Part shown: positions 1 through 63,990 of the stretch, in pieces
How the letters are laid out: each line of letters begins with the position of its first letter
How positions within the stretch are numbered: the stretch's first letter is position 1
From: Microglena sp. YARC
Lineage: Eukaryota; Chlorophyta; Chlorophyceae; Chlamydomonadales; Chlamydomonadaceae
Direction of reading: 5' to 3'
Length of the DNA: 64,000 nucleotides
Assembly (NCBI GenBank): GCA_022414725.1
Contig: CM039463.1
Span: 22,267,511-22,331,510, forward strand
The notes under the pieces: model-generated
What the model saw: the letters and a program-made list of their open reading frames with translations, nothing else
Database searches by the model: none
What the model was told of the DNA's origin: nothing
Position numbers and translations under genes: made by a program

Positions 1-2369
1 TACGCCCCCGGCAACCTGCTCGGCCGCGGTCTCAGTTGGGATTCCAAGCAACTCATCTGCTTGCAGACATCTGAAGGAGCGTCCAAACAATGCGGGTGCG
101 TTTGGTTTGATATGCATGGTCTCTGGTTATTTGATATGTATAGTCTTGTGCTGACCGTTTATTTATTTCATTTAACCCTGCATTCACAAGCTGGGTTGTG
201 CAGATGTATGTTATGCAAGTGATCAGCCCGTGCCATTGTTGGTGTGGTAGGTGTTCCCCTAGGCTTCATATGCTGTGTCTAACAATTGATGTAGTTGGTC
301 CCCTATACACTTAGTCCTGTACTTTCTTTGCTTGTTTCCCAGGTTTGGCTGCGATCCGCCTGAGAATCCTCAGGCTCAGATTGAGGCCTTGATGCTTGCT
401 TACCCTGCGTACGCCCCTAGCATCCTAGCTGCTGGTGGTGGGGATTCCTTTAACTACTGTGAGGATGGATGCTACATCCCTTCTGGCTCACGTAAGAATA
501 GATCCCTCCGTTCCTTTCATGAACCCTGCATACCAACCACATTCTGCATGTGTGTATGTGTGTGTGTGGGGGGGTGTGGGGGGGGGTTCCTCGTCCTGTT
601 TCCACATCTCCTCATTAGCGTGCGCACTTGCTACTCAAGTATGTTTTGAACTGTATTTAACTAAACAACCTAGGTGGTAGAATCCTGGCCTGGAAAGTTC
701 AAGGTCACGATGTGGTTCAAGCTACCATAACATTGTCAAGGGCAAGTAATGCCTTGTCTACTTCAAAAATAGATGTTAAATCTAAATCCGAACAGTAAGC
801 GCCAGTAATAGATGCAAGCCCTGAGATACCGTTTACATAGCGATGGTGCCTCTCCCTGTGATTTTCTTCCGCCTCATGCCATGTTCTCCCTCTTGCCCTC
901 ACAGCTGGTGCTCCCTATGACCCCTTCCTGGAGGCAACGGCTGCTGGATTCCGTGGGTTCAAGGCTGGTGTTGAGGCTGTGTGTGCACGCACCTGTGCAT
1001 GGTACCGCACGATCAGGGACACTGCTGGTGAAGGAGGCATGGACTACTATCTGGCTGAGTCTCAGAAGCCTGACAGTGACCTCAGGTAGGCTCACTCTCT
1101 TATTGTGGGAGCAGTGACTCCAGCTAGGGGCACTCTCTTATTGTGGGGACAGTGACTTTAGTAGGTTCATTATGTTATTGTGGGGACAGTGACTTCAGGC
1201 AGGCTCACTCTCTTATTGTGGGGACAGAGACTTCAGGAAGGCTCACTCTCTTATTGTGGGTTGGGTAGGCCTGGTGAGGATTTTGTGCGTTCTTTTGTCA
1301 GTCCTGTCCAAGGGGAGGCAAGCTACATTGTGATTCACATAGGAGGGGTGCCCTGCTTGTTGTTGCTCCTGCACCACTGCCTAAGCACGTGCTACCCGCT
1401 GTCCCACAGGTATGTGATGACTGCTGAGGACAAGACTGCCTTTGAGCAAGCGTGTGCTGTTGATGCGAGTGAATTCTTTGGCTTCACCGGCCGAAAGGAG
1501 GCGGATTCCAAATCTGAAGGACCTGTTGGCGGCTTCTACTGGTGGCAGTTCCGAAACAACTACAAGCCCAAGTACAAGTACCAGGCAGTGGTTCTGCAGG
1601 TTAGTAAGCGCTTGTCGTGGAGCTTGTGCTTGTGGCAGTAACAACGTGAATACGAGCTGCACCTTGTACATCTTGCTTCCATACACTTCGTGTATTTACC
1701 TCGTACCATTGCACCCTGCCTCCTCTGCAGTCTGCCCAGACAGCCTACTTCACAGCTGTTGTGATGGCCAAGATTGCTTGCGTCATTGCCAACAAGACCC
1801 GCAAGCTGTCCATCGTCCACCAGGGCATGATGGGGAACAGGTTAGCTGTGTGCTGTGCCTGCTGATTTTTTGCCTATCTCCACAATTTTGTTACTACCCC
1901 TGTGCTGCACTTCTGGCGGCATTTTGGGACACAGTAATCGTTTGTACAGGTTTCAAATTTTGGTGTGAACCAAACCACATTGTTTTTGAAGCCCCCAAAC
2001 TCAATAGATGCGAGACGTTAAGCACATAGGAATCATCATAGGCTGCAGGATATGTTATTATAGAGCCCTTAGCTTACATGCTTTGCCATATGTGACTTCA
2101 CTTCACTTTGATCATATCTAGATCTGGCTGAACTGGAAACCCCTGTGCCTAACAGCACCCTCAATTAATGTATAGCTGAACACCTGGGTGGCCTGCATAG
2201 CATGTAATCAGCTTGGGAGTAGTCTAGTAGTTGTCTACTTGCCTTTCCCATTTTGATTGGGCTAGTTGGTCACAGATTGCATGAGTACTACACTGTGAAG
2301 AATGGGATTACCTATCCTACCTATCCCACAGCCGGTGCTTAAGATCTGACGAGGCAGTCAACAATGTGT

Positions 2370-2400
<31 letters not shown>

Positions 2401-2970: not shown

Positions 2971-3003
<33 letters not shown>

Positions 3004-5677: not shown

Positions 5678-5898
5678 TTTCAATATTAGAGTTGTTACAC
5701 AGTGAAGACTGAAGTAGAAGAAGGAAGCACACGACGAGTGCGCTTATATCGAAGACGGGAGTCTGCAGGAAGATCCTGTAGACCCGTGTAGGCCACAGCT
5801 AGCCTGTGGCCTAGCGGCAGGCAACACGGGACCTGGAGAGACCAGGCACCGGTATGCATTATGCTGACTCAGTGTCCGACGTATATCGGACAATAACA
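5678..5898 (-). repeat. 3' LTR of element 1
   Basis: 221 bp. It reads TGTTATTGTCCG... on the - strand and ends TATTGAAA, so the canonical TG start is present but the usual CA end is not. I count four mismatches to the partner LTR (about 98% identity), so the insertion is fairly recent. Confidence 0.85.
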
Positions 5899-9547: not shown

Positions 9548-9768
9548 TTTCAATATTAGAGTTGTTACACAGTGAAGACTGAAGTAGAAGAAGGAAGCAC
9601 ACGACGAGTGCGCTTATATCGAAGACGGGAGTCTGCAGGAAGATCCTGCAGACCCGTGTAGGCCACAGCTAGCCTGTGGTCTAGCGGCAGGCAACACGGG
9701 ACCTGGAGATACCAGGCACCGGTATGCATTATGCCGACTCAGTGTCCGACGTATATCGGACAATAACA
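9548..9768 (-). repeat. 5' LTR of element 1
   Basis: 221-bp partner of the repeat at 5678-5898. It ends at the internal ...GACAATAACA and is followed directly by the duplicated target TAAAT. No promoter element could be assigned with confidence. Confidence 0.85.
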
Positions 9769-12153: not shown

Positions 12154-15100
12154 ACAGCCTATTTTGTGGTGGGCAAGTTCCACTAGGGCTATTCACCCAC
12201 AGACCCCACACACAAAACCTCGCCTCAGGATTCATGGCATATGCAAGCATCCTTGCATGCGGATACATCCCCAAGCTTTGGCCAGATGAGGAACCCCGGA
12301 GTGCTGCCACACCAGTACCCTTAATGTGCATAAAATCAGGCGCCATGCCAGCCTCATCCTCAGCTACACCCTCCGCCATGCCAGCCTCATCACCAGCTAC
12401 ACCCTCTGCCATGCCAGCCTCCTCTTCAGCTACACCCGGCGCCATGCCAGCCTCATCTTCAGCTACACCCGGCACCATGCCAGCCTTATCATCAGCTACA
12501 CCCGGCACCATGCCAGCCTCATCATCAACTAAACCTGGCGCCATGCCAGCCTCATCATCAGCCACACCCTGCGCCATGCCAGCCTCATCATCAGCAACAC
12601 CCTCCGCCATGCCACCCTCATCATCAGCTACACCTGTGCCCAGGCCTACAGACCTGGCATGCCAATTCAAGCTTGGGCAGCACAGCTGCTCTTGGTCGCT
12701 AGCTGTGGCGTGTGTTACACACGGGGGGCTTAGCCCACCCCCTTCGGCCTCTACCCACCTACCAGCCACTGCCACCACACTCCAGCCTGGCACAGTTGGT
12801 GGTACAGCCTGTCGAGAGCTAGCATATGGTTGGGGGTCTGCAATCAAACTCCAGCCTGGCGCAATCGGTGGGACAGTCTGTCGAGACCTGGCATATGGTT
12901 GGGGAAGTTCACTCTTGATTGATGTGTCACATGAATGCTTTGAGGATGATGATGGTAGCGACTGGAAGCGATGTAAGCAGGAAAACAGCGTACATGATAG
13001 AGACAGGGTACGCACTGACCCATGCAACACACATGGAAAGCAAAGTAATGGGGAAGGTAGTGCCCAGGATGGCCACATCACCACCACACCGCCACACCAC
13101 CAGACCACCACCACAACACCTTCACCGCCACAGCAAGCACACCGCAACCTTGGATGGCACTGCCCCCTGGAGCAATATGCTGTCAAGATATCTCAAGTAT
13201 CATGCGGTGAAGGCAACAGATTGGCGTTGGATGAGACTGGATCAGTGTGGGCGTGGGCAGCTGGATTCGATGCAGGCTTTGGCCACAGCCCACGTTGTGC
13301 GCTTGGACCCAGGTAGGGCATATCACATATCCACTGTGCAATCAATCCTCTAAGTTCCATAAGCGTTTATTATTAAAGGATCATGCGGTGAAGGCAACAG
13401 ACTGGCGTTGGATGAGCCTGGATCTGCGTGGTGGTGGGCAGCTGGCTAAGGCACATTTTGTTGACCACAGCCCACATTGTGTGCTTGGACCCAGGTAGGG
13501 CATATCCACGTGTCCTCAATTATGTACCTATATCATACAATCATGAGCCTAGATAGACCTATCTGGTGGTGGGCAGCTGGATTCGGTGCAGTCTTGGGCC
13601 ACAGCCCACCTTGTGTGCTTGGATCCAGGTAGGATTTCAGTGTTTCTATTTATGGCTACTCGTGGGTGGGGTAGGATGGGTTGGGGGAGGTTAGGGTGGT
13701 GGGGTGGGATGGGGGTTGGGTGGGGTAGTGGGGTAGAGTGGGATGGCTGCCCACTGTCTCTCTTTCTGCTTCCTTGACTGCTGGGGTGGGTTGAAGGTGG
13801 GTGGTTTGATAAGGTGTGGTAGTCGGGTGGGGTGGTGAGGTGGGGTGGGATGGTTTCGGGGTGGGTGGGGTGGGATGGATACCCAATGTCTTTCTTTCTT
13901 CCTTCTAAGCAGAGCTGAGCCAACTTCAGCTGGCGCCCAAGCAACGATAGTCATGAAGGACGTGGCTGGGGTGGGAAGGGGCCGGGTGGTGGGGTGGGGT
14001 GGAGTGGGGTGGCAACTCACCGTCTATCTTTCTGCTTCATTAATCTTCATCTCTCGTCTCCTCTTATTGTTAAATTCTCTCTTTGAAGAATCTGTCTTAG
14101 ATCTCCAGTACAGCCCGGAAAGAAGCTTTTGTTGCCCCCCCCCCCCCCCCCCCCACACACACACCACCACCACCACCACTACCACCACCACGCAGAGCTG
14201 AGCCAGATTCAGCTGGCGCCCAAGCAAGGATAGCCATGAAGGACATCTGCTGTGGGGGCATCACTACACTTTCTCCTCCTCCTCCTCCTCCTCCTCCTCC
14301 TCCTCCTCTGTATCTCTATGAGCGAGGGGGTTGGGGTTGGGGGTTGGGGGTCTGGGTGGGGTGGGGGGGTGGGGGGGCAAGTAAGAGTCCATGTCCAATC
14401 CAGACTTTACTTCCAAGTCAGTCTGACCTTATCTTGAAAGCCCTGAACTCCCTCTTCTTGCATTCAACACAGAGCTGAGTCAACTTCAGCTAGCGCCCAA
14501 GCAAGGATAGCCATGAAGGACATTTGCTGTGGGGCGCGTCACTACGCTGCAGTCTCCTCCTCTGGATCTCTATGGACCTGGGGGTGGAACGGATACGGCC
14601 AATCTGGGGTTGGAGAGGTTGGAAAGGATCTGGCTACTCCAAGCCATGTCACAGCCCTAGCTGGCCTGTGCATGACGCAAGTGTCAGCTGGACTTGCACA
14701 CACGTTAGTCTTGTCTGGTGAGGGAGGAGCCTCGAGGTAGTGGTGGTGTGTGTGGTGGTGGCGGTCACACGTTAGTCTTGTCGGGCGGGTTGGAGTTGGA
14801 CTGATGACATGGTCTATTAGCCTTAGGCTGCTCACAGGCACATACATATACACCTGCACATACACAGGCACAGATACATATACATACGCATGTACATACA
14901 TATACACATCGATATATGTAACAAGATACAGCCGTTCGTTCGTTCGTCTATGGTGACTTAGTCGTCTTAAAAGTATCCCCGGCGAGCAAAAAAAACAAAA
15001 TACCAGCAGCGCCTCTACGCATGAAATATGAGCGTTGTCACTTTTTGGCTTGCGCATGTGCACTAGATGCGCCATCTCTCTCCACCATTGCATCGCCTTC

Positions 15101-37025: not shown

Positions 37026-37092
37026 AGGTGGGTCAGTGGGGGAGGTGTGTTCATTCTAATGGTCATTGTGAGGTTGTTGGTTAGGTACACTG

Positions 37093-47325: not shown

Positions 47326-48260
47326 GCAAAACTAATTCAGTAAGAGCAGGCTGTAACAGTGAAATCAGGACCAGCTCAAGTCTCAGAACCTAGCTAGTGC
47401 GGACCTAGCTATCAATCAGTTCACATTATTAGATCTATATGAGTAGGTAGTCCAGCCTGCAATTGTACTGACAAGCGAATATGGTCCAGTTCCGCCGAGA
47501 CCTCGGAGTGGGTACATACAGTCTTGGGGGCCACGGCTCATGCATTCTGACACCCAAACACTCCAAGAGCCGCTGTCATGGAGAAGATCACCAGCTAGGA
47601 AGCTGTCCTTCATATCTGGAGGCAGCGAGAACATCAATTCACATTAAACAGCTTATTAGAGTTTAGCACGACACGACCACAAAGTAAGGAGACTAGCCAG
47701 CTGGGCGCACGGCTACGCGCAAGCGAATATTACACCAGTAGATCTTGTTAGGTGCGCTCCGCAGAGATTTGAGAACAGATAGAATGAGAGGGGTAGTGGG
47801 GACATCTACCCAAGTATCGTCGTACGCGAGGCGAGCCCGTCGGCATGGAGTCTACCCCACATGCACGTTCAACCTCTGAAGGAATGCACGAGAACTGAGG
47901 CAAGGGTGCTTGCAGTCTGCGAGACCCCGACCCAGTACTGATTCAAGGTGACAGGCTCGAAGGAGAAGATAGATCACTAGACACTACAAGCTGGGTGCCT
48001 CTAGGCAGCGGGAGAGGAACAACAGAGGTGCAGGTGAAAAGGGAGTTAATGGAGCAAATATACATATAATCTTATAATAGGGGTGGGACCTCAGATGTGT
48101 ACAGTGACTGACAGTGCCAGAGCCGACGCGATGTACATACTGTCTGCTACGCAGGGAAATGCATCATGAACACAGCACTACCACAAACCCTGCCAAGATC
48201 ACAAACGAGGCTAGTGAAGGGTTTCCTTCAATCGGAAGCTTAGGTTGAGCACAACCACCT

Positions 48261-49664: not shown

Positions 49665-49799
49665 GACAAAACTAATCAGTCCAATAATACAGCTTGGTAC
49701 GAGTGAATAGGCGATGCCATCTAACATACGACTAGCGATGCTGCCTTGCAGCTTTACACAATTATCTTAATTAGTGTGCGCTACAATTACTGACAGTAT

Positions 49800-51417
49800 T
49801 TTTAGTTGAGCCGCGGAGTACCACCTAATTGGTGCGGCCACCGCGTGCCATGTTCTTGAAACCACAACACAACCTAAAGGTTAAAACACATGACGTGTTC
49901 CAGGGCGTAGTTCAGGCTATTTTGCTTTTCATCGATCCCGCACGTCCAAATTTCACCGTGTCTTCGCGAGGCCCGGATTTCAGACGGGATTTGCAGGACT
50001 CATATTTCGGGCCGTATCTTAACCGAACGCTATTTGTCAGACTTGTTAAATTCCAGCTTTATTTCATCGATCCTTCGCACGTCAAGGTTCACCGTGTTCC
50101 CGGACTAGGATTTAGTGCGGTGAACTCAACGTAACCGAAAACAATGTCCGAAAATAGTATGTCCCGAACTACCGAACTTGTCCCATGTTGTCATTACTGT
50201 ACCATAATTGCCATAATTTGAGTCCGAAGGATCGACTCACGTCACGCAGGCGAGTGCGGACGTCTATTCACTGCGCCTTGCAGGTTAGCTAATTTTTTCC
50301 GAGTTTGTTCCAGGCTGTCCAGCTATGGAGTTTATTGCTTTTCCAGGCGTACCCTAAGGGTAGTGTAAGGGCTACTACATTCTAGGCACTGGCGCGTAAT
50401 AGCAGAGTGGATAGTTTAGTTGAAAAGCGAATTGAAATCTCATCCGCAAACAATGTCAATCGCCCATGAATGGTGTTATGCGTTACCTTCTAGATCCAAA
50501 AGCTTCGTGTCTGTGCCCGACCTTCCATACTCGTGACTCGTGAGCGCTAGTCGAACCGCTTGCCAACAATCAAGAGCTATGACAGAGCGAGTATGCATCT
50601 GAGCGCATTACCAATGAGTTTGTCGGTAGGAAATATTTTAGGGACAAGTAGGAGTAGTGACGGTAACTCTCTCAATATGATAAGAGAAATGCTCCTCAGG
50701 TACGGCAAGCTGCTCATGGCGGGTTTTAATAACTCACCAAAAGTGGATCTTTCAGGTCAGCACTACACCACAGTACCGCGGTGGACAACTCTCAATTCCA
50801 TTTCTACTCCCTTCGCTCTTGGCTACAGCCGCGTGTTTCAATCACATCTGTAACCATATACACCACTCTTAGGACAATCTATCCGAGCAGGTATGTGAGC
50901 TCTCTTATAAAAATCCTCCTACGACATACCTGCTCTGGCACGTGTAACACCTCGGCAGTCAGGTGTCTCGTGAGAAAGAGGCGTGCGCTTAAACATCTCT
51001 GCTACAAACGTCCAGTTTCCCAGCTCATCTTCCTCTATAAGTAGGTAGAAGCAGATAAGCTGGCGCTCGCGAGTGTGAGAAAAGGTAACAGTTTGCTTAT
51101 AGTTCAAGCAAACTAGCCGAATACACAAACTCTCCTGGGGCCATCCAATTTGTTTTGAACTCTCTCATTTAAAAAGATCTTGCCCAGCATACCTGCTCTG
51201 CACGTGTAACCCCAAGTGCTCAGCTCACCCAACAATTTCTCTATTTATTAATACCGGGTGATTCCTGACCCTCTTCCCTCTTGGCCACAGGTCGGTTTTA
51301 AGTACATATCTAGCGGCGATAGCACAAACGTCTTGGAAGTTCCAGCCAATTTAATCTATCCTATGAAATAGTGCTCTTAAACCTCATTAAAAGAATCGAT
51401 GCCCAAGAAGATTACTG
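49800..51417. other. Gap-proximal sequence with degenerate repeats, no gene recognised
   Basis: Two local repeats are visible. TTCATCGATCC..CGCACGTC.A with TTCACCGTGT occurs at 49927 and 50062. CATACCTGCTCTG.CACGTGTAA with GCTCTTGGC.ACAG-type words occurs around 50815-50950 and again around 51190-51295. Sequence quality is doubtful. Confidence 0.45.
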
Positions 51418-52417
51418 NNNNNNNNNNNNNNNNNNNNNNNNNNNNNNNNNNNNNNNNNNNNNNNNNNNNNNNNNNNNNNNNNNNNNNNNNNNNNNNNNNN
51501 NNNNNNNNNNNNNNNNNNNNNNNNNNNNNNNNNNNNNNNNNNNNNNNNNNNNNNNNNNNNNNNNNNNNNNNNNNNNNNNNNNNNNNNNNNNNNNNNNNNN
51601 NNNNNNNNNNNNNNNNNNNNNNNNNNNNNNNNNNNNNNNNNNNNNNNNNNNNNNNNNNNNNNNNNNNNNNNNNNNNNNNNNNNNNNNNNNNNNNNNNNNN
51701 NNNNNNNNNNNNNNNNNNNNNNNNNNNNNNNNNNNNNNNNNNNNNNNNNNNNNNNNNNNNNNNNNNNNNNNNNNNNNNNNNNNNNNNNNNNNNNNNNNNN
51801 NNNNNNNNNNNNNNNNNNNNNNNNNNNNNNNNNNNNNNNNNNNNNNNNNNNNNNNNNNNNNNNNNNNNNNNNNNNNNNNNNNNNNNNNNNNNNNNNNNNN
51901 NNNNNNNNNNNNNNNNNNNNNNNNNNNNNNNNNNNNNNNNNNNNNNNNNNNNNNNNNNNNNNNNNNNNNNNNNNNNNNNNNNNNNNNNNNNNNNNNNNNN
52001 NNNNNNNNNNNNNNNNNNNNNNNNNNNNNNNNNNNNNNNNNNNNNNNNNNNNNNNNNNNNNNNNNNNNNNNNNNNNNNNNNNNNNNNNNNNNNNNNNNNN
52101 NNNNNNNNNNNNNNNNNNNNNNNNNNNNNNNNNNNNNNNNNNNNNNNNNNNNNNNNNNNNNNNNNNNNNNNNNNNNNNNNNNNNNNNNNNNNNNNNNNNN
52201 NNNNNNNNNNNNNNNNNNNNNNNNNNNNNNNNNNNNNNNNNNNNNNNNNNNNNNNNNNNNNNNNNNNNNNNNNNNNNNNNNNNNNNNNNNNNNNNNNNNN
52301 NNNNNNNNNNNNNNNNNNNNNNNNNNNNNNNNNNNNNNNNNNNNNNNNNNNNNNNNNNNNNNNNNNNNNNNNNNNNNNNNNNNNNNNNNNNNNNNNNNNN
52401 NNNNNNNNNNNNNNNNN
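51418..52417. other. Assembly gap, exactly 1000 N
   Basis: A round-number run of N, so the real gap length is probably unknown. Open frames drawn across it are meaningless. Confidence 1.
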
Positions 52418-52604
52418 GCTTCCTTGTCCTCGTCCTGTCCAGGTCATACTTGAATCCTTGCCTCTTAGACCGCCTTCTAGTTAGAAGCTTCGAACAAGTG
52501 ATCACAGAAGCCTCGCGAACCGCCCTCTCGGATAGTACTAGCCCACAGATTGCTAGCATAGTATGTATCGTCATGATATGTGGTGAATTAAATGCACCTG
52601 TAGC

Positions 52605-52880
52605 GTCATGTGTGTATGTATGTTATGTATAGTATTACTTAATGAATATGTAATGTATGTATGTATTGTATGATATGTATAGTATGATGTATGTATGTTT
52701 GTATCGCTTTGTTTGTTTGATGATATAGTAAATGTATGTATGTATGTACTGTAATTGTATTAGTATGTAATGTGTGTGATGTATGTATGTAATGTAGTTT
52801 GTATGTGGATGTATGTATGTATTGTAGTATGTATGTATGTATGTATGCTACTGTATGTATTGTATGTTTGATCGATGCAT
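52605..52880 (+). repeat. (ATGT)n microsatellite, degenerate
   Basis: ATGTATGTATGT units with many single-base interruptions, again followed within a few bases by the dispersed 47-bp motif. Confidence 0.9.
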
Positions 52881-52888
52881 GTTGTATA

Positions 52889-52933
52889 ACAGTACCAACG
52901 GTAGGTCAAATAGGTTAAGAGACTTGCCAACCG
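52889..52933 (+). repeat. Dispersed ~47-bp motif, copy 4
   Basis: ACAGTACCAACGGTAGGTCA.. to ..GACTTGCCAACCG, diverged by small indels. Confidence 0.65.
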
Positions 52934-53430
52934 ATGACCAGGGAAGGGCGCTTAAAATAGAAAAAAAGAAGCAGAAAACGGCTCTGGACATACTGCCCAC
53001 AATATTGAATCTACGCATAAGAGGAGCGCATGGCATAGTTTAGGGCCAGGGATTTATTGCGACAAAACAAGACAGATAACAAACGACCGAATAAAGAGTT
53101 GACCCCTGGGGGATTCTTACACCCCAGAAAAGGGGGGGCCTTCTGGGGGAAAACTATCTCATGCTGCTTGCTACTGCTGGGTTGCATTTATGCGGAGCCC
53201 CCTCTCAAGGAGCCCCCAGTGTTACCATGGTTGACGTTTGACTGATCGACCCGAAAATTGAAGCCTGAACGCCAAGTCCAACGGTCTCGTAACTAACTCG
53301 CTTCCGTTGCCATCTGCTCGCTCTGTCACGAAACACTCTCCGCCATTTTCAGCCTCCGCATGGCGACGCTGCATAGAACTTGTTTTTTTTTTGTGTCTGA
53401 CGTACTGAATACAATGCTGTGCCATTTATA
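52934..53430. other. No gene confirmed
   Basis: A 67-codon - strand frame (53425-53222) is open but shows no motif. GGGGGCTCC words occur inverted around 53120-53220. Confidence 0.4.
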
Positions 53431-53553
53431 GTATGTATTTTTACAGGCCAGCGAAAAAACTCTCCTGCTGTATGCTACAGCTGTGTTTTGCATATTATTA
53501 TTTTGTGGTGTTACGTATTGATGCGGTGTTGTGGCATCAGTATGTATTTTTAC

Positions 53554-53614
53554 AGGCCAGCCGGAAAGAAATCGCTAGCCACCACCTGTGCCACAACAAA
53601 GTGCCACCACTTGC
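53554..53614 (-). CDS. Candidate small dynein-gene exon
   Basis: On the - strand an acceptor CCTTGCAG is followed by 61 bases reading KWWHFVVAQVVASDFFPAGL in one frame, then GTAAAAAT. Support comes mainly from the surrounding echoes: the acceptor side recurs upstream (53690-54265) and the donor side (CTGGCCTGTAAAAATACATA) recurs once downstream at about 53440. Assignment to the dynein gene is by strand and position only. Confidence 0.3.
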
Positions 53615-53689
53615 CTGCAAGGCATGCCTGCACAGTGGCCAGTTGATGACAAGCAGTAAGATCATGATAATGAGCATAAAGACTGAAGA

Positions 53690-54265
53690 CCTGCACCTGC
53701 GCTATCTACCACAACAAAGTGCTTGCTGCAAGGCATGCTGAACGTGGCGAGTTGATGACAAGCATTAGATATGATGATGAAGATGAATAAACAGTGAGGA
53801 CAAACACCTGTGCCACAAACAAAGATGCACCACTTGCTGCAAATGCATGCTGCACGAGGTGAAGCTGATGACACGCATAAGATATGATGATAGAACGAGA
53901 TGATGATGATGAATAATGATGATGATGATGATGATGATGATGATGTTGAATGATGATTGATCATGGTGATGGTTGATTGGTGGATTGATGATGATGACAT
54001 GATAGATGATGATGATGATGATGAATGATGATGATGATGGATGATGATGGTGATGATGACAATTGGTGATGATTGAATAAACAGTCAAGACCGCACCTGC
54101 GCCACAACGAATGTTGCTGCAAGGCATGCTGCACATGGTGAGTTGATGACAAGCGTATGATTATGATGATGATAATGATTATGATTATGATGATGATGAT
54201 GATGAAAAAAGTGAGGACCCGCACCTGCGCCATCATCTACGAAGTGCACCACTTGCTGCAAGGCA
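53690..54265 (-). repeat. Four echoes of a splice-acceptor-like block with (CAT)n
   Basis: On + each unit reads CCACAACAAAGTGC.CCACTT + GCTGCAAGGCATGCTGCACG + TGGTGAGTTGATGACAAGCA followed by a (GAT)n tract. Units lie near 53715, 53835, 54115 and 54250, with a further one at the candidate exon (53600). Spacing varies because the GAT runs differ in length. Confidence 0.7.
53880..54075 (+). repeat. (GAT)n microsatellite
   Basis: GATGATGATGAATGATGATG-type run with scattered interruptions. Confidence 0.9.
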
Positions 54266-54339
54266 ATGCTGCACGTGGTGAGTTGCATCTGCTCTTTGTC
54301 GGTTGAAGTCAAGACATATGTTGGAACCTATCGAACGTT

Positions 54340-54731
54340 GGCCAACATTGCCAACTGCAGGCTAGGCCCCCCTCTGGGAGCTCCTCCTCCTCAGAGGAGC
54401 AGCCGGTGCTTGGGAGGTGCTTCAGCAGAGCAAGTCGTCCTTAGCGACGGTCATGGGGTTAGCAAAGACCGCATCCATATCATCCTCCCCAACATTTGTC
54501 AAACAAATCCCGCTTGCACTATCGCCTTTGTCTGCCTCTCCATTCGCCGCCTCTGGCAGTGCGAGGCTACTGTGTGCAATGCCCGAGAGGAGGGCCTTTC
54601 TTCCTCTCATCGCTAGGTATTGCGATGTCCATTGATTCAGCAGCCGGATCAACTTTGTCATCGATCTCGCCTAGCTTGCGGAGAGCTGGGCCTCTCTCTC
54701 GTAGGCCTGGTCCGCCTTGAGAGCAGCCCAC
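54340..54731 (-). pseudogene. Candidate dynein-gene exon with apparent frameshifts
   Basis: After the acceptor CATACAACAACAG (54744-54732 on the - strand), coding-like sequence reads across frames: ALKADQA near the start, KLGEIDDKVDPAAESMDIAI, then SLALPEAANGEADKGD and TNVGEDDMDAVFANPMT. Each segment looks like a genuine acidic, charged protein, but joining them needs small indels. The cleaner echo at 56803-56862 gives AAPKADQAKRESMISKL for the first part, which supports consensus errors over true decay. Placement in the dynein gene is inferred from strand and order. Confidence 0.4.
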
Positions 54732-54744
54732 CTGTTGTTGTATG

Positions 54745-56795
54745 CATGTACGTAATGGGTGTATGGTGGTTTATCTTACAGTAATGTATGAGGTATTCTG
54801 TTATGTGTACAGTAATGTATGTATGGTACAGTAATGTCATGCTATGGTAAGAAGTAAGTATGTATTAGTACTGGTACTATGCTACAGTATGTACACATAG
54901 CACAGCAAAATGTATGTATGGTACACGTAACAATTAGATAAGTACCACCCAGTCCGAGTGTATATGTTGGTCACAGATAAAATGTATACAGTATGTATGC
55001 TTATGGTACAGTATGAGTATGTATGTACAGTTAATGTACGTATGGCGGACAGGGTAATAGTTGAGGTTTATGCGTAGACAGTAATGATACAGCAACAATT
55101 AAATGTATGTATCCACTAGAATAGCTAACGAGTAGGTACAATGCGAGTATGATTGCCAGTTAATGTATGTATGGTTACTACAGGAGGTATGTACAGTAAT
55201 CAATATGGTAACAGTAATGTATGATATATAATGTATCAGGTACAGTTAGATGTGGTAGTCGAGTAATGGTAGTTGGTATACCACAGTATGTTGTATGTGG
55301 GTGTTAATTAATGAATGGTTATGGTAAACATAGTGTATTGTAGGAGTGTAATGTATGTATGTTACCTGTATACAGAATGTACTGTATGGCAGTAATGTAT
55401 GTCATGGTACAGTACTGTATGTTATGGTGGGTACGTAATTTAGAAGTAATGTATGTACAGTAATGTAGTATGGTACCAGTAATGTATGGTACATGAGAGG
55501 GGTACACGTATGTGGACAGTAATGTATGAGGTACAGTAATGGTACGGAGCTATGTATGGTACGTAAGGGACTATGTATGTATGTATCTACAGTATTGGAA
55601 TAATAGAAGAGGTAGAGAGTAGATGGTAATCTTAATAGGACCATCCTACTACAGTAATGTATGTATGGTTCACAGTAATGTATATGAATAATGTAACTGT
55701 TGTAGTAGTATGAGAATGTACCAGTAATGTATGGTAGTGGTGGTACCAGACAGTAATGTCATTGGTCATGGGGGTACAGTAATGTATGGACAGTAATGTA
55801 GTATGGGTACATACATGGTATGTATGGTAACAGTAATGGTATGTATGGTTTTTACCAGTAAGTCTGTATGTATGGTACCCAGTAAATGTAAAGGGTATGG
55901 TACAGTAATGATGGTGCTCACCAACCGTAGTAATGTATATCGGGGTACAGTAATGTATGGTACCGTAAATGTATGTTCGGTTATGGCTACAAAAGTAATG
56001 TATGTATGGTACGTAGGGGTTACACCGTAATGTGTATGCTGTACAGTGAATGTAATCCGGTACAGTAGTATAGAGGTAATTTGTGTACACGTAGTAATTG
56101 TTATGGTACCAGTAATATGTATTGGTAACAGTAATGTATGTGATGTATGGTACAGTAATGTAATGCGACAGTATGGTACAGTAAGTATGATGTATGGTAC
56201 AGTAATTGTACTAGTATGTATTGTATGGTACAGTATAGTATGTATGGTACAGAATGTATGGTACAGTAATGACAGTAATGTATGTATGGTACAGTAAGTA
56301 AATGTATGGTACAGTAATGTATGTATGGTACATGTATGATGGTACAGTAATGTATTGGTACAGTAATGTATGTATGGTACACAGTAATGGTATGTATGGT
56401 ACAGTAATGTATGGCCTAAAGTATGGTAAAGTATGTATGGATAACAGTAATGTAATGTTATGGTACAGTAATGTATGTATGGTAGCAGTAAATGTAATGT
56501 ATGTATGGTACAGTAAATGTATACAGTACATGGTATGCTTATGGGTAATGTTAATGTATGGTACAGTATGTATGTATGGTACAGTGTTAATGTATGGTAC
56601 AGGTATGTACCCAGTAATGTATGGTACAGTAATGTATGTTATGGTACAGTGACATGTAATGTATGTATGGTTACAGTAATTATGTAGTAATGTATGTATG
56701 GTACAGTAATGTATGGTACAGTAAACATTACAGCAAATGGCCCATGTGTGGGTGTATGTTACAGTAAATGTTTCAGTAAATGACCCATGCATGTA
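54745..56795 (+). repeat. 2-kb GTATGGTACAGTAATGTAT microsatellite
   Basis: Degenerate repeat of TATGGTACAGTAATG and ATGTATG words with constant indel noise. It lies between two copies of the same exon edge (54692-54745 and 56803-56870). Frames across it are artefacts. Confidence 0.95.
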
Positions 56796-56802
56796 TGTAC
56801 GT

Positions 56803-56870
56803 TACAGCTTGGAGATCATGGACTCTCTCTTGGCCTGATCCGCCTTAGGAGCAGCCACCTGTTGTTGTAT
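56803..56870 (-). repeat. Echo of the 54.73-kb exon acceptor and 5' edge
   Basis: On + GGACTCTCTCTTGGCCTGAT + CCGCCTTAGGAGCAGCCACC + TGTTGTTGTATGCATGTATG mirrors 54690-54750. On - it is an acceptor CAACAACAG followed by a clean 18-codon frame and then a stop. Confidence 0.8.
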
Positions 56871-56950
56871 GCATGTATGGGGGTATGTTATATATGGATG
56901 GCGTCAGCCATTTTATATGTGGATGGGTGCATTGCATTCATTCCCGTGTG

Positions 56951-56983
56951 GTAGTAAATTAGGCCAAAGGGACTTGCCCAACC
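56951..56983 (+). repeat. Dispersed motif, copy 5 (partial)
   Basis: GTAGTAAATTAGGCCAAAGG + GACTTGCCCAACC; the 5' CAGTCCAGG part is missing. Confidence 0.6.
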
Positions 56984-57059
56984 TTGAATAACTAAGATAG
57001 CTCTAGACTTTTAGGGGGGGCTGAATTAACAAGCAATTTATGACCAGGGCTCCGACAGA

Positions 57060-57370
57060 AGACAGACACACTATTAGATCAGTTAACTACATGTTCAACT
57101 ATTTTGTGAACTACAGGTTAAGCCACACCTTAAACTTCCGGTATATGTTTATCTACTTGTTTATATACTTGTCAAACCACATGTTTAACTACACCTTTAA
57201 CTACATGTTATACTACACCTTTAACTCCCGGTACATATTTAACTACATGTTAAATACTTGATGAACTACATGTTGAACTACTTCTCTTATTATATCTTTA
57301 ACCAAATCTTGAAGTCCTGGTACAAGTTTAACTGCATGTTTAACTACTTCTGTAACTGCATGTTTCACTA
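57060..57370 (+). repeat. Degenerate AACTACATGTT repeat
   Basis: Words AACTACATGTTAAACTAC, TTAACTACACC and AACTTCCGGTA recur every 11-40 bases and grade into the 58-bp satellite. Confidence 0.7.
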
Positions 57371-59762
57371 CATTACATGCTTAAATACTTGTATAATTAC
57401 ACGACATGGTTGACTGCATGTTTCACTACATTACATGCTTAAATACTTGTATAATTACACGACATGGTTGACTGCATGTTTCACTACATTACATGCTTAA
57501 ATACTTGTATAATTAAACGACATGGTTGACTGCATGTTTCACTACATCACATGCTTAAATACTTGTATAATTACATGACATGGTTGACTGCATGTTTCAC
57601 TGCATTACATGCTTAAATACTTGTATAATTACACGACATGGTTGACTGCATGTTTCACTACAGTAGGACGTTACATCTTAAATACTTGTGAAGACATAAT
57701 TACAGTGGGCGACATGGTTGACTGCATGTTTCACTACATTACATGCTTAAATACTTGTATAATTACACGACATGGTTGACTGCATGTTTCACTACATTAC
57801 ATGCTTAAATACTTGTATAATTACACGACATGGTTGACTGCATGTTTCACTACATTACATGCTTAAATACTTGTATAATTACACGACATGGTTGACTGCA
57901 TGTTTCACTACATCACATGCTTAAATACTTGTATAATTACACGACATGGTTGACTGCATGTTTCACTGCATTACATGCTTAAATACTTGTATAACGTTAC
58001 ACTGGACTATAGTTGACTGCATTGTTTCACTACATACTACATGCTTTAAAATACTTTAAATACTTGCAATATATATAAATTACACGACATGGCACATTTG
58101 ACTGCATGATTCACTAACATTACGGAATGCTTAAAGATACATTGTATAACTTACACGACATGGTCGGAGAGTGACTGCATGTATTCACTACATTACATAG
58201 CTTAAATACTTGTTATAATTACACGACATGGTTGCGACATCGTTTTCACTACATTACATGCTTAAATACTGTATAATTACATTGGGAGGGCTCATGGTGA
58301 CTGCATGTTTCACTGCATTACCATGCTTAAATACTTGCTTATACATGCTGATGCGATCATGCTTTACACATGGATATACCATGTTGACACATGTTTACAC
58401 ATGCTACATGTATTGCTACTACGACATGGTTGACTGCATGTTTCACTACATTACATGCTTAAAATACTGTTTATTAATATTAAGCCAACACATTCACACA
58501 AGGGACATGTTATTTAAGTTGACTGCATGTTTCACTGCATTTACATGCTTACATACTTGTATTAATTACACGACATGGTAGGTGAATGGTTGGCAAGTCA
58601 ACCTACTCCACTACCAAGATCACGCATGTAAAATACTTGTGTGAGTGAAACTAGCATTTTGTCGTGATTATAATTACACACGACATGGATACAAAATTAT
58701 AAGACTGTCATGTTTGCACTTGCGATTATGCATTGTAAATACTTGTACTAATTATCAATGTTATGTAACGACATGGTTGACTGCATGTTCACTACTGCAG
58801 GCGCTACACACATAGCCTTAAATATCGTTTACTTGAGTATAGAATTACACGACATTCTGGCCATGGTTGACTGCATGTCTTCACTCGGCATATTATTACA
58901 TTTAGGCCTTAAAATAGACTTTGTATAATCTAACGACATGGTTGTGACTGCATGTTCTCACTACATTCACATGCTTAAATACTTGTATAATTACACGACA
59001 TGGTTGACTGCTTGTCATCAGTAATCACTATCACTGCATAATTAACAGGCTTAAATACTTGTATAATGTATGTTAAACACATCACTACATACTACATCAA
59101 TGCTACTTTGTTGTTTGTAATTTTTATAACCTTGTATAGATTATGCAGGTTGAAACATCTTACTTGTATAGATTACAATGACATGGTTGACTGCATGTTT
59201 CACTACATTACATGCTTAAATTACTTGTATAAATTACACGACATGGTATCGTTGTATTCACTCTTCACTGACAAATTGCCATGTTTCACATGGTTGTACA
59301 TTACGAATGCTTAAATACGTGTATAATTTACACGACATGGTGTGACTGCATGTTTCACTACAATTACATGCTTAAATACTTGTATGGATTAACACGAAAT
59401 GGTTGACTGCATGTTTCACTACATTACATGCTTAAATACTTGTATAATTACACGACATTATTGACTGCATGTTTCACTACATTACATGCTTAAATACTTG
59501 TATAATTACATGACATGGTTGACTGCATGTTTCACTACATTACATGCTTAAATACTTGTATAATTACACGACATTATTGACTGCATGTTTCACTACATTA
59601 CATGCTTAAATACTTGTATAATTACACGACATGGTTGACTGCATGTTTCACTACATTACATGCTTAAATACTTGTATAATTACACGACATGGTTGACTGC
59701 ATGTTTCACTACATTACATGCTTAAATACTTGTATAATTACACGACATGGTTGACTGCATGT
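57371..59762 (+). repeat. 58-bp satellite, about 40 units
   Basis: Unit GACTGCATGTTTCACTACAT + TACATGCTTAAATACTTGTA + TAATTACACGACATGGTT. Units at 57412-57655, 57717-57990 and 59395-59762 are nearly identical. Between about 57990 and 59390 the same unit is riddled with inserted bases. It lies in a presumed dynein intron. Confidence 0.95.
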
Positions 59763-60790
59763 TATCATCGCACCTGATGTTGTACGAGGGCGATCTGGGA
59801 AGAGGACATCCCCTCTTGCTGTTTGGGACGAGGGAGGAGGTGGAGTTCCCGTTGCGTGAAGAGGGGAGAGGAGAAGAGGTATTAGTAGAAAGCTCGTCAA
59901 GCTCGCTGCCGTCTGGCTCTTCAACCGCCCGCTGTGAGGGGTGTCGGTGGGGGCGCGGGTACCTCTAGAAGGAAGACGGAGGGGGAAGGGGGATAACTGG
60001 TTCTGGTTGTGCGGATGGTTTGAGTCATTGGGTGGTTGGATAGTACTTGAAAGGGGAGGAGAAAGCTCGTCAAGCTCGCTGCCCATCAGCATCTTCTCAA
60101 CCGTCCCGCTGCAATCAGTAAGGGGCGCAGGTACCTAAGAAGGGAAGAAGGAGGGGGGAAGGGGGGATTGCTCTGCGCTGGTTGTGTGGATGCTTGGTAG
60201 GTTGGATGTTGGATGCTTGGATGCTTGGATAGTTGAAAGGGAGGGGGGAGGAGAAAGCTCGTCAGGCTTGCTGCCGATCGGGCTCTTCAACCGCCCCGCT
60301 CGGAAGGGGGCGCGGTACCTAGAAGGGAAGGCGGAGGGGGAAGGGGGGATTACTGGCTGGTTGTGTGGATGCTTGGATGCTTGGATGCTTGGATAGTTGA
60401 AAGTGAAGGGGGAGGAGAAAGCTTGTCAGGCTTGCTGCCATCAGGCTCTTCAACTGCCTGCTCAGATGGGGCCCTGTACCTAGAAAGGAAGACGGAGGGG
60501 GGGAAGGGGGATTACTGGCTCCTTGTGTGGATGCTTGGATTGGATGGTTGGATGCTTGGATGTTGGGATGCTTGGATAGTTTGCTTGGGGGGGGGATTGA
60601 ACGAGGGGGGGGGGGGCGGGGGGGGGGGGGGGGCGGGGGGGGGGGGGGAGAAAGCTCGTCGGCCTGCCGTCCCCCACCGTCGGGCTCTTCAACCGCCTGC
60701 TCAGGTGGGCGAGAGCGCGCGGTACTAGAAGGGAAGTCGGAGGGGGGAAGGGGGGTTACTGGCTCCTTGTGTGGATGGTTAGATGGCTAG
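59763..60790 (-). repeat. Five ~175-230-bp units with an acceptor-like edge and a coding-like segment
   Basis: On + each unit has GGAGGAGAAAGCTCGTCAAG + CTCGCTGCC + GGCTCTTCAACCGCC + GGTACCTAGAAGGGAAG + GGGGGATTACTGG + GGATGCTTGGATG. Starts of the first word are near 59885, 60058, 60250, 60414 and 60645. On - the core reads AVEEPDGSELDELSP in one unit and close variants in the others, preceded by a C/T-rich stretch ending CAG or GAG, so these may be echoes of one dynein exon edge. Which copy, if any, is the real exon is unclear, and the phase after the exon at 61024 does not match this frame. Confidence 0.6.
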
Positions 60791-60842: not shown

Positions 60843-60958
60843 GTAGGCTACCTCTGGACTGAGGCATACATACATACGTACATATGTAGCATGCATACAC
60901 TAATTGGTTTAGCCTCAGTCCAGTACACCCTCCTTGTGTCTGTGTCCGCCCTCCGCTT
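60843..60958 (-). repeat. Echoes of the dynein exon donor edge (61024 side)
   Basis: On + GGTTTAGCCTCAGTCCAGTA + CACCCTCCTTGTGTCTGTGT + CC.CCCTCCGCTTC is present at 60907-60958 and again in the real exon at 61031-61083, about 124 bp apart. A shorter piece (CTCTGGACTGAGGCATAC) lies at 60850. In the echo the exon end AATCAG is changed to AATTAG and the GT is displaced. Confidence 0.8.
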
Positions 60959-61020
60959 CATACATACATACATACATACATACATACATACATACATACA
61001 TACATACATACATACATGCA
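60958..61020 (+). repeat. (CATA)n microsatellite
   Basis: About 14 CATA units immediately beside the donor of the exon at 61024-61244. Confidence 0.95.
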
Positions 61021-61023
61021 TAC

Positions 61024-63592
61024 CTGATTGGTTTAGCCTCAGTCCAGTACACCCTCCTTGTGTCTGTGTCCACCCTCCGCTTCCACGCCCCCGCAGTGTC
61101 CTCGCACACGGCCAGAGTCATCCGGCGAATGTTGAGCAGGGCAGGTCCGAAGGTGTCTGAGAGGAGTAACAAGTTCTTGGAGATGATCTTGCAGTGGCGC
61201 TTATAGCGCACGGAACGTACAGTGCTTCGCCACTTGCGAAATGCCTGCAATATGCACAGGCAGACGGTTTATCAAACTTGACAACCCTGACTATAACAGA
61301 GAACATGGATTGCTGCAGTGGCGCTTATAGCGCAGGGAACGTACAGTGCTTTGTCACTTGCGGAATGCCTGCAATATGCACAGGCAGACGGTTTATCAAA
61401 CTTGACAACCCTGAGTATAACAGAGAACATGGATTGCTGCAGTGGCGCTTATAGCGCAGGGAACGTACAGTGCTTTGTCACTTGCGGAATGCCTGCAATA
61501 TGCACAGGCAGACGGTTTATCAAACTTGACAACCCTGAGTATAACAGAGAACATGGATTGCTGCAGTGGCGCTTATAGCGCAGGGAACGTACAGTGCTTT
61601 GTCACTTGCGGAATGCCTGCAATATGCACAGGCAGACGGTTTATCAAACTTGACAACCCTGAGTATAACAGAGAACATGGATTGCTGCAGTGGCGCTTAT
61701 AGCGCAGGGAACGTACAGTGCTTTGTCACTTGCGGAATGCCTGCAATATGCACAGGCAGACGGTTTATCAAACTTGACAACCCTGAGTATAACAGAGAAC
61801 ATGGATTGCTGCAGTGGCGCTTATAGCGCACGGAACGTACAGTGCTTTGTCACTTGCGGAATGCCTGCAATATGCACAGGCAGACGGTTTATCAAACTTG
61901 ACAACCCTGACTATAACAGAGAACATGGATTGCTGCAGTGGCGCTTATAGCGCAGGGAACGTACAGTGCTTTGTCACTTGCGGAATGCCTGCAATATGCA
62001 CAGGCAGACGGTTTATCAAACTTGACAACCCTGAGTATAACAGAGAACATGGATTGCTGCAGTGGCGCTTACAGCGCAGAGAACGTGCAGTGCTTCGCCA
62101 CTTGCAAAATGCCTGCAATATGCACAGGCAGAAGGTTTAAAGGACACTATAACTAGGGATGTCAATGTTGTACGATATCGAAATTGACAACCCGAATTAT
62201 AACAGAGAATATGGACTGCTGAAATGGCGCTTGCAGTGCAGGGAACGTGCAGTGCTTCACCACTTGCGAAATGCCTGTAGTATGCGTAAAAAGATTGACA
62301 TATGAGACGTGCCGCTTGCAAAAGTTCTGCAATATGCGTACATAGATTGATATATGAGACATGCCACTTGCGAAATGTAAAAAAGATAGACACGTGAGAC
62401 ATGCCACTTGCGAAATGTAAAAAAGATATACATATGAGACGTGCCACTTGCGAAATGCGTGAAATGTGCATATAACTTTATATTACACCTGGACCATAAC
62501 ATAAATGTCATAAGGCGTTAGATGTACTCCTTTATAACTAAGACATGAACTCATACATGGGCATGTAATAAATTTAAACTTGCAAGAGAAAACACACATG
62601 TGAGAATGAATAGGTAGAAAAAACGACAAAGTATGAGAAATGAGAAATTAACACATAAATGAGAAATGAACATATAAATGTGAAATGGACACATAATGAG
62701 AAATTAACACATAAATGAGAAATGAACATATAAATGTGAAATTGACACATAATGAGAAATTAAAACATAAATGTGAAATGGACACAATCCTGAGAAGTGA
62801 ACATATAAATATGAAATGAACGTTTAAATGTGAAGTGAACATATTAATGTGAAATGAACATATAAATATGAAATGAACAAATGCAATATGAACAGGCATA
62901 TGAGAAATGATTAAATGAACACAATCATGTGAAATTAACACGTATGTGTGAGAAATGAACACGAGCATGCACTCATATAATGATCATCATTGGTGGTTGC
63001 CCCCCAGTGAAAGCAAACGGGCTGGCCCCCTTAACCTCAGGCCTTGTAATAAGGCGTACTATTAATTCATTGATTTAATTATCATAAGGACTAAAATCGA
63101 CAAAAATGACAAAAATGGAAAAAAAGGGATTTGTTCGCGGTTTCATTCTCCTGGTAGGAATTGTTTTTACTGCCGAATACGACTAGCAACCAAATTGCAG
63201 GCTGGAGCTATGTAACCAAGTTCAAGTTCAATGATCATCTGGACTTACATGGAAGAGCTCATTCTTTTTGAAGTTGACCAAGATTGGTGGTTGGCCCCAG
63301 TGCAAGCAAATGGGTGGGACCCCGCAACCTCACGCCTCGTAATAAGGCGCACTATGTATTGATTTATTTAATGATCATCTGGACTTACATGAAAGAGCTC
63401 ATTCTTTTTGAAGATGACCAAGCGTTTGAGGATGGAGAATATCTGAGCCTCGCGGTACCACTGATGGTGGGGCACCAATTCATAGGCCAGCCCCCCCCAC
63501 ATGTGGGTGACCCCCGTTTGACTCATCACGAAGTGGAAATGTGGATAGACCTGGTTGCGCTCCACAATGACGAGGTTATAAGGGTTGTACTC
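61024..63592 (-). CDS. Axonemal (inner-arm type) dynein heavy chain, two tail exons
   Basis: Part of the N-terminal tail of a ciliary dynein motor chain. Exon 63592-63389 (acceptor TTTTGCAG, donor GTAAGTCC) encodes 68 residues beginning [14 protein letters not shown], with [14 protein letters not shown] and QWYREAQIF. Exon 61244-61024 (acceptor ATATTGCAG, donor GTATGC) joins in phase 0 and reads [38 protein letters not shown] and [14 protein letters not shown], ending in phase 2. The order NPYDL, TVSATGVTH-like, W.RE...F, F.KWK...W..NVR and ALL.IR is that of the tails of monomeric inner-arm heavy chains (animal DNAH3/6/7/12 group) as I recall them. The gene begins beyond 64000 and continues toward lower coordinates. 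The motor domain is not seen. Both exons are flanked by tandem echoes of their own edges. Confidence 0.75.
61245..62330 (-). repeat. 124-bp tandem array: echoes of the dynein exon acceptor
   Basis: Upstream (higher coordinates) of the exon starting at 61244, its acceptor plus the first ~54 exon bases recur with exon-start positions at 61368, 61492, 61616, 61740, 61864, 61988 and 62112 (exactly 124 bp apart), then a diverged copy near 62274 and shorter pieces to about 62460. Units are 97-100% alike except the last. Each retains TATTGCAG and the following GCATTCCGCAAGTG but is cut off after CGCCACTGCA, where the intron part (GCAATCCATGTTCTCTG) follows. Confidence 0.9.
62270..62480 (-). repeat. 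~45-50-bp degenerate units of the same acceptor edge
   Basis: ATGAGACGTGCCACTTGCGA + AATG-AAAAAGAT-A-ACAT repeats at about 62305, 62355, 62395 and 62440, a shorter-period offshoot of the 124-bp array. Confidence 0.75.
62585..62970 (+). repeat. ACATAAATGAGAAATGAACA-type 18-20-bp repeat
   Basis: AT-rich units AACACATAAATGAGAAATGA and AACATATAAATGTGAAATGG, about 20 copies, in the dynein intron. Confidence 0.9.
62985..63300 (-). repeat. Echoes of the dynein 63389 donor edge
   Basis: On + GATCATCTGGACTTACATG + GAAGAGCTCATTCTTTTTGA occurs at 63232-63270 as an echo and at 63373-63413 as the real donor and exon end. The intron stretch next to it (GGTGGTTG.CCCCAGTG.AAGCAAA + GGCGCACTAT) occurs at about 62990-63060 and 63284-63355. 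The echo still contains a usable-looking GTAAGTCC. Confidence 0.85.
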
Positions 63593-63990
63593 CTGCAAAA
63601 CATACATAATTATTTTTGATCAGACGCCTTTGACTCATGACAAAGGGAAAAAGGTGGATAAACCTGGTAGCGCTCCACCACCACCACCACCACAACAACA
63701 ACAACGCGGTTATAAGGGTTGTACTCCTGCACAGCGTACACGAAGGTTGACAGTCAGAAGCTTTTGACTCAAGACACAGTTGAAAGGTGGATAGTCCAGG
63801 TTGCGCTCCACATTGGCAACGAGGTTGTAAAGGTTGTACTCCTGCACAACATACATGATTGTTTTGTATTATAAGCTTTTGACTCATGACAAAGTGGAAA
63901 GGTGCATTCACCTGCTTGCGCTCCACAATGACAACGAGGTTGTAAGGGTTGTACTCCTGCACAACATACACAATGGTTGCCGATCAGAAA
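63593..63990 (-). repeat. Three echoes of the dynein 63592 acceptor edge
   Basis: Exon-start equivalents at 63726, 63841 and 63956, each preceded on the - strand by TGTGCAG and followed by GAGTACAACC(C/T)TTA(T/C)AACC ... GTGGAGCGCAAC or CTAC ... ATGAGTCAAA, then a short AT-rich intron piece. The first has a (CCA/CAA) triplet expansion. Period is 115-134 bp. Confidence 0.9.

Follow-up and report, generated by a model that had tools for sequence, protein, structure and literature searches.

The window analyzed here is a 64,000-nucleotide stretch of the genome of the green alga Microglena sp. YARC (contig CM039463.1, positions 22,267,511 to 22,331,510), in which splice junctions of protein-coding genes are accompanied by imperfect copies of themselves, each made of an exon edge plus the adjoining intron edge and lying in the neighboring intron. 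We refer to these copies as echoes. Of the gene-splice junctions sampled in this nuclear genome, inside the window and in other genes, more than half lie in head-to-tail arrays, and introns have grown in large part from duplicated border sequence. The best reading, and one that we consider likely, is that segments are duplicated head to tail at random positions, that the extra copies decay neutrally, and that selection on the coding sequence fixes which copy serves as the real splice site. Direct support for this reading comes from the head-to-tail units in the arrays that were read, the neutrality of the echoes in the window, the polarity of real and extra copies, the scale of the phenomenon in the sampled genes, and the even distribution of breakpoints. 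A first-pass annotation of this DNA had proposed a genome-wide process that lengthens introns by local tandem duplication seeded at splice sites, possibly with an RNA template. Its occurrence in other genes, the tandem duplication, the neutral decay, and the lengthening of introns were upheld, whereas the seeding at splice sites and the RNA template were not.

Three genes were recognized in the window: the last exons of a Na+/K+-ATPase gene on the plus strand (match to a solved structure, E = 1.8e-17), a gene for an RCC1-repeat protein on the plus strand (Pfam RCC1, E = 2.6e-40), and the N-terminal exons of a dynein heavy chain gene on the minus strand (match to solved structures, E = 4.7e-13). 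The dynein match was obtained with the solved-structure sequences, and Pfam gave only a weak spurious match on the same exons. The best match with a green-algal name in the RCC1 protein search was to Sanguina aurantia (50% over 23%). Junctions were defined, both here and in the other genes, by homology together with GT-AG, and 22 were mapped in the window. Local direct repeats crossed 9 of the 22 in a sensitive self-comparison with simple repeats masked, and mononucleotide shuffles (5 for each of the three gene regions) gave no junction-crossing match, so the earlier observation that exon edge and intron edge are repeated together in the adjoining intron holds. Its count of at least ten junctions is reached (10 of 22) only if the weak RCC1 donor at 14717 is included, the echo of which scored 35 in a probe test and was missed by the masked self-comparison. 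By gene, the crossed junctions numbered 1 of 12 in the ATPase gene, 4 of 6 in the RCC1 gene (5 with the weak case), and 4 of 4 in the dynein gene. The repeats that contained both edges were head-to-tail units of more than 10 bp in an array straddling the splice junction, that is, arrays of minisatellite type.

The same pattern was found elsewhere in the genome, a 568-Mb assembly in which the window lies on a 94.8-Mb contig. The whole sample comprised about 82 kb of gene loci plus 200 kb of flank and covered three gene families besides the window's. For dynein, 63 domain matches were grouped into 15 loci, and the 13 loci with more than one match were analyzed; for kinesin, 4 of roughly thirty multi-exon loci were analyzed; and a HECT-domain gene was chosen because it was located in the fetched flank. 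Local tandem families crossed 31 of the 56 junctions at the dynein loci (16 donors and 15 acceptors), for which the exon chain of each locus was hand-picked from a match table already showing echoes in L024, L025, and L026. The corresponding figures were 12 of 20 for the four kinesin loci, where the match table seen beforehand showed an echo in one (L038), and 7 of 8 for the HECT gene, so that echoes are also present in genes elsewhere in the genome. Seven of the 35 dynein gaps between exon hits (the third of L034, all four of L035, and both of L036) were excluded for missing exons or uncertain junctions, and 1 of the 11 kinesin gaps gave no junction, making 8 of 46 in all. An epimerase-like gene, given a rough look by eye and kept outside the totals, had 1 of 4 junctions crossed. 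Families lying wholly within introns numbered 11 at the dynein loci (in 30.4 kb), 5 at the kinesin loci, and 6 in the HECT gene, and 3 dynein families were left unclassed (in one, a copy stopped 17 nt away from the junction; another was a whole-exon duplication; and the third lay on both sides of an exon). Array spans took up 31.1 of the 41.5 kb (75%) of 38 introns at the dynein and kinesin loci, which supports the claim that introns have been lengthened. The copying fell off sharply with distance from the junction: exon bases had a copy in the adjoining intron in 42 of 76 cases at 5 nt, 37 of 76 at 50 nt, and 11 of 73 at 100 nt, and in none at 150 nt (0 of 63) or 200 nt (0 of 43).

Domain searches report such exon-edge copies as extra matches, which calls for caution among gene annotators. 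The full dynein match at 29815188 was preceded by four partial ones beginning at profile position 313/314 (C1:29814573-29815130), and the exon at C3:56953159 was followed by four copies that stopped at position 259; the kinesin table showed the same pattern, for example, at C2:15919754-15920484. By eye, echo pairs were apparent at 5 junctions among the 63 dynein matches and at 8 (plus 2 doubtful) among 128 kinesin matches. None was apparent among the 28 HECT matches, although the DNA of the HECT gene shows them at 7 of its 8 junctions; the domain tables thus give a lower bound for echoes, and in the kinesin table, 122 of 325 candidates were scored.

The architecture of the units points to local tandem duplication. 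Two arrays were read base by base, one of 153 bp before the exon at L024:6390 and one of 144/172 bp after the exon at L025:4149, and in both, as the first-pass annotation had held, the units ran head to tail, each with an exon edge and an intron edge. At the dynein and kinesin loci, the median lag between copies was 125 bp (interquartile range, 80 to 160), and the smallest lags of the junction-crossing families, which were located at one intron end, ranged from 34 to 330 bp. After masking, 43 of 102 families aligned over at least 85% of their spacing. At the dynein and kinesin loci and in the HECT gene, families were never assigned to both junctions of the same intron, and the duplicated units were therefore probably shorter than the introns that they hit. 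The exon share of the unit was evenly distributed from 0.1 to 0.97 (Kolmogorov-Smirnov test against a uniform distribution, p = 0.75 for 26 of 31 families and p = 0.38 for 35 of 43, families with an exon reach greater than the smallest lag being omitted). This even spread indicated that the splice site marks no breakpoint, and since similar arrays were also found within introns, outside genes, and in an exon, the idea of seeding at splice sites is not supported. Breakpoints lying exactly at the splice site had been hinted at by two RCC1 acceptors, and this candidate was rejected on the flanks of both: at acceptor 14473, one of the echoes borders on CAC repeats and the other has about 20 nt of intron in common with the real copy, and at acceptor 17505, about 10 nt of intron is common to echo and real copy.

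The same architecture bears on an RNA origin. RNA-templated repair leaves copies without introns or with joined exons. Copying of exon edges into introns from RNA or cDNA would fit with the presence of the copies in transcribed genes, near their source. The units, however, include intron sequence beyond the splice site and, in the arrays that were read, are joined head to tail, and no exon position at least 150 nt from a junction was copied in the sample, although a transcript would supply any part of an exon. We therefore give the templated origin suggested earlier hardly any credence.

Which copy is real follows a strict polarity. In the window, the real junction was always the copy next to the intact exon, as described before, and of 76 junctions in the other genes probed with the exon edge, 39 had a copy on the intron side and 1 had it on the opposite side. 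That single case (L026:2059-2312) is a partial exon copy with its donor upstream of the intact exon and is probably a whole-exon duplication whose first copy decayed. When a duplication straddles a donor, an unchanged protein requires use of the first donor, and when it straddles an acceptor, use of the last; the polarity is therefore made by selection on the protein and gives no clue to the mechanism of duplication. The outermost sites join the exons in homologous order, which places the arrays within the intron, and the real acceptor was the last of several similar ones.

In their decay, the window echoes look unconstrained and appear to be drifting neutrally. Compared with the real exons, the ungapped copies of seven window families (including four of the eight copies at dynein acceptor 61244 and two of the three at 63592) had a nonsynonymous divergence (dN) of 0.099 and a synonymous divergence (dS) of 0.153, a ratio of 0.65, within the range of 0.5 to 1 that a drifting echo and a constrained exon would give. 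The window echoes also contained stops and frameshifts, in agreement with the earlier description of nonfunctional decay. Since one exon copy is held by selection, exon parts should be less diverged than intron parts, and in two families the intron parts were indeed about two to three times as diverged (RCC1 donor 13312, exon 84% and intron 64% identical between the real copy and the first echo; dynein acceptor 63592 [DYN0], exon 78 to 88% and intron 58 to 75% identical). The loss of GT that had also been reported was seen in the window, where 3 of 11 donor echoes kept it (read by eye), but not elsewhere: among 40 donor copies outside the window, GT was present in 37, lost in 2, and not covered in 1. 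Outside the window, AG was kept in 61 of 65 acceptor copies, and the copies had a mean identity of 0.93 to the real edge, in a count whose score cutoff favors young copies. The gap in GT retention could reflect age, the score cutoff, or selection. Selection against decoy donors, hinted at by the window figure, was dropped as a candidate, given that the other genes kept GT in 37 of 39 covered copies and that the cutoff favors young copies.

High retention of GT and AG outside the window, together with the several echoes that are open in frame, might instead mean that the echoes are functional alternative exon ends under selection. Mutually exclusive or otherwise alternative duplicated exons are whole exons with both splice sites and an intact frame. 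The copies found here are partial exons only, and those in the window, to judge from their sequence, are exon edges with stops, frameshifts, and the dN/dS ratio of 0.65; a functional role is accordingly regarded as very improbable.

Under the favored reading of random duplication, a segment of about 80 to 160 bp that straddled a splice junction by chance would be duplicated head to tail, perhaps by replication slippage, flap ligation, or end-joining. The copy still joined to the rest of the exon would stay the real junction, and the extra copy would become intronic and silent. Further rounds and growth of the array would lengthen the intron, while the extra copies drifted without constraint. 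Duplications inside an exon would survive only in frame, and those inside introns or between genes would survive freely. The introns may have been a few hundred nucleotides long or less when growth began. Under exon definition, splice sites are paired across the exon, so that each real site would be paired with the other end of its own exon and the echoes silenced. Exon definition would thus predict the choice of the outermost sites and make the arrays silent; pairing of the nearest sites across the intron would predict the opposite.

Several observations weigh against this reading, in particular those that suggest a preference of duplication for junctions. Such a preference might arise if duplication struck anywhere along genes and more often at exon borders, for example, through transcription-coupled or chromatin-linked breaks. 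Among the ten introns lying wholly in the window, 7 of 8 families crossed a junction, the sole nonsimple interior family being a 19-bp minisatellite in a dynein intron. Random placement would give 1.9 crossings with present intron lengths (P = 0.0001), 2.8 after removal of arrays and simple repeats (P = 0.0013 to 0.0016), and 3.55 once start lengths were estimated and detection was corrected by a factor of 1.4 (P = 0.0087). The correction stems from a simulation in which an exon-anchored repeat stayed detectable about 1.3 to 1.5 times as long as a wholly intronic one (summed from the simulation table). At the dynein and kinesin loci, 43 of 59 families crossed a junction versus 25 to 35 expected at random, an excess of 1.2- to 1.7-fold. 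Over corrections of 1.0 to 1.4, the expectation was 25 to 29 with estimated start lengths, 28 to 32 without family-free introns, and 31 to 35 with all introns at the median estimate (P ≤ 0.006 in each case); with a correction of 2.0, it was 33 to 38 (P = 0.002 to 0.085), and with present intron lengths it was 12 to 18, no run of 1,500 reaching 43. Moreover, families inside dynein introns were about as rare as those in the 32.5 kb of the window outside genes, where 11 tandem families with lags of 56 to 585 were found. The start lengths are themselves estimates and probably too long, because decayed duplicates are counted as original sequence, so that the excess would shrink further. It shrank with each correction applied, and in the window set it lost significance when every intron was given a start length of 250 nt or less (P = 0.17 at 250 nt). 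No preferred breakpoint was found, and the HECT gene held 7 crossing and 6 interior families. A junction preference is therefore held to be unlikely, although the residual excess could still favor a weaker form of the earlier seeding idea.

Other difficulties concern the contiguity, decay, and distribution of the arrays. After masking, 59 of the 102 families aligned over less than 85% of their spacing, so contiguity was not established by alignment for them; the two of these that were read base by base had simple repeats in the gap. At RCC1 acceptor 14473, one echo was 91% alike in its exon part and only 38% in the adjoining intron (the intron side next to the echo at 14192 consists of CAC repeats), and at acceptor 17505 the echoes were 66 to 72% alike in the exon part and 40 to 43% in the intron. 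In the young dynein array at 61244, the decay pattern was inverted, in that the intron part was the more similar (68 of 69 alike, versus 51 of 55 in the exon part). The ATPase gene (-9000 to 4600 in window coordinates) had only 3 array families in 13.6 kb, and its neighbors were full of arrays, which indicates that genes differ strongly in array load. Finally, the window holds many tandem arrays, and single-point probes gave no clear junction enrichment on their own (junctions, 8 of 21; intron interiors, 471 of 1,406; exon interiors, 133 of 392; other positions, 208 of 1,560). The lack of a clear excess arises because the echoes themselves occupy intron interiors, and event-level family counts were adopted in place of this test.

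These last two findings, together with a stretch at about 46 to 60 kb that resembles uncorrected long reads, would be expected if the echoes were an assembly artifact or a repeat-rich background noticed because exons are easily recognized. The absence of matches in shuffles, the divergence of the copies from the real edge, the sharp fall with distance from the junction, and an array common to a paralogue argue to the contrary, and we attach next to no weight to this explanation. That paralogue is a second copy of the ATPase gene to the left of the window (-25259 to -12804), inverted, head to head with the window gene, and 91.6% identical over aligned bases. It carries the 38-bp junction array at -23141 to -23291 with one unit fewer, and of the 17 gaps of at least 15 bp between the two copies, 2 are changes in array units. 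The arrays therefore change on a moderate timescale, copy-number variation between related copies having been observed at this one junction array only.

The arrays in the window are listed below. In the ATPase array, the first copy is the real site, and GT is kept in none of the 4 echoes. The two repeats inside the RCC1 exon, which we take to reflect events of the same kind, keep the reading frame, both units being multiples of three, and are for that reason tolerated. At dynein donor 63389, the remainder of the unit is repeated as well (62981-63085 versus 63275-63378). At acceptor 61244, AG is present in all eight echoes, and shorter fragments of the unit extend the array to its far end.

Tandem arrays at splice junctions, in exons, and within an intron of the window (window coordinates)
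Feature	Position	Strand	Unit and copies
ATPase intron 3 donor (1085/1086), array	1072-1260	+	38-bp unit (14 nt exon plus 24 nt intron), 5 copies
RCC1 exon, in-frame 33-bp tandem repeat	12339-12646	+	
RCC1 exon, 69-bp duplication	12769-12904	+	
RCC1 intron 1 donor (13312/13313)	13195-13633	+	Real copy 13195-13324; echoes 13376-13506 and 13564-13633, GT kept
RCC1 intron 1 acceptor (14472/14473)	13893-14562	+	Echoes 13893-13961 and 14192-14281, upstream of real exon start
RCC1 intron 2 donor (14717/14718)	14698-14785	+	Weak 20-nt echo 14766-14785, GT changed to GC
RCC1 intron 3 donor (16716/16717)	16660-16936	+	Echoes 16798-16857 and 16879-16936, both without GT
RCC1 intron 3 acceptor (17504/17505)	17066-17551	+	Echoes 17066-17162 and 17314-17410, AG kept
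Dynein donor, real exon end 61024	60900-61082	-	Single echo at 60900-60958; an inserted base alters the donor
Dynein acceptor, real exon start 61244	61190-62470	-	124-bp unit (55 nt exon plus 69 nt intron), 8 echo copies; echo exon starts 61368, 61492, 61616, 61740, 61864, 61988, 62112, 62274
Dynein intron, 19-bp minisatellite, wholly intronic	62638-62962	+	
Dynein donor, real exon end 63389	62981-63422	-	Echo 63232-63282
Dynein acceptor, real exon start 63592	63517-63989	-	Unit about 115 bp; echo exon starts 63726, 63841, 63956

Beyond these arrays, the stretch from 46200 to 60000 resembles a noisy copy of the arrays at 42.6 to 46 kb and contains a 1,000-base N gap at about 51418-52417. A possible dynein exon at about 54.5 to 54.7 kb was left out, the sequence being noisy and the search matching nothing, and a second one near 54.3 kb, also in noisy sequence, likewise stands outside the counts; the frames of the possible exons at 54.3 to 54.8 kb seem shifted. 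A 221-bp direct repeat (5678-5898 and 9548-9768), its copies 98% identical and separated by 3.9 kb, resembles retroelement long terminal repeats. A Ty1/copia-type polyprotein frame lies at 35286-37055 on the minus strand, with a match to one EukProt protein (100% over 92% of its length), and is adjoined by a 444-bp unit in two tandem copies (99% match) at 37451-38338.

The arrays make visible, and countable, one way in which the introns of a large eukaryotic genome lengthen, and they provide most of the sampled genes with natural series of similar donor and acceptor sites. If the upstream echo acceptors are ignored, then this organism does not splice by simply taking the first AG, and exon definition could be tested in nature; we rate the splicing of the arrays as a greater puzzle than their origin. 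A bolder view combines splice borders as genuine hot spots of tandem duplication in this lineage with exon definition, under which the extra sites are ignored, and sees in the two a ratchet by which border copies came to make up most intron sequence. We regard this as rather improbable; were it true, the cell would have to single out the outermost site in each row of several near-identical ones.

Several known systems resemble these arrays in part. Introner-type intron transposons place near-identical introns in unrelated genes. The units read here carry each gene's own exon edge, and a genome search with the 124-bp dynein array, by a method that skips very common words, matched only its own locus. 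Yeast lacking the Rad27/FEN1 flap nuclease acquires direct duplications of up to about 100 bp during replication. The likeness lies in direct duplications made by replication; there they are a mutant phenotype.

Closer precedents have been published as isolated cases, contrary to the earlier statement of knowing no named system that matches exactly. Human variable internal tandem repeats at exon-intron boundaries alter splicing and make new introns (De Grassi and Ciccarelli 2009, PMC2812944), with 162 raw alignments reduced to 27 intron modifications after manual inspection. They are likewise minisatellite-type arrays that lie across a splice junction and modify the intron, but they occur in recent paralogues within segmental duplications, whereas in Microglena more than half of the sampled junctions are involved and existing introns grow. 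In the potato RdRp gene, an intron was gained by tandem duplication across an intron-exon boundary (PMC4974935, citing the AGGT model of Rogers). There too, the duplication runs head to tail across one boundary and copies the splice signals along, but a new intron arises, whereas here the outer sites serve an existing intron, which absorbs the copies. Neointrons of Daphnia contain internal direct repeats and grow passively in length (55 of 90 new introns), and a staggered-break model has been proposed for them (PMC4202315). Repeats within introns and passive growth are common to both systems; the Daphnia intron/exon repeats, however, are 4 to 12 bp long and tied to intron birth, whereas the lags here are 34 to 330 bp, often with many copies, and the pattern of 4- to 12-bp repeats at opposite intron ends was not found with a search length of at least 18 nt. 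In the open full-text literature, judged from titles and openings and with subscription journals mostly outside its coverage, no description was found of junction arrays as a common mode of intron growth in a genome, and the available part of the Cymbomonas genome paper (PMC5741210) makes no mention of such arrays. We regard the Microglena arrays as ordinary boundary minisatellites, of a kind already published as isolated cases, present here at an unusual scale.

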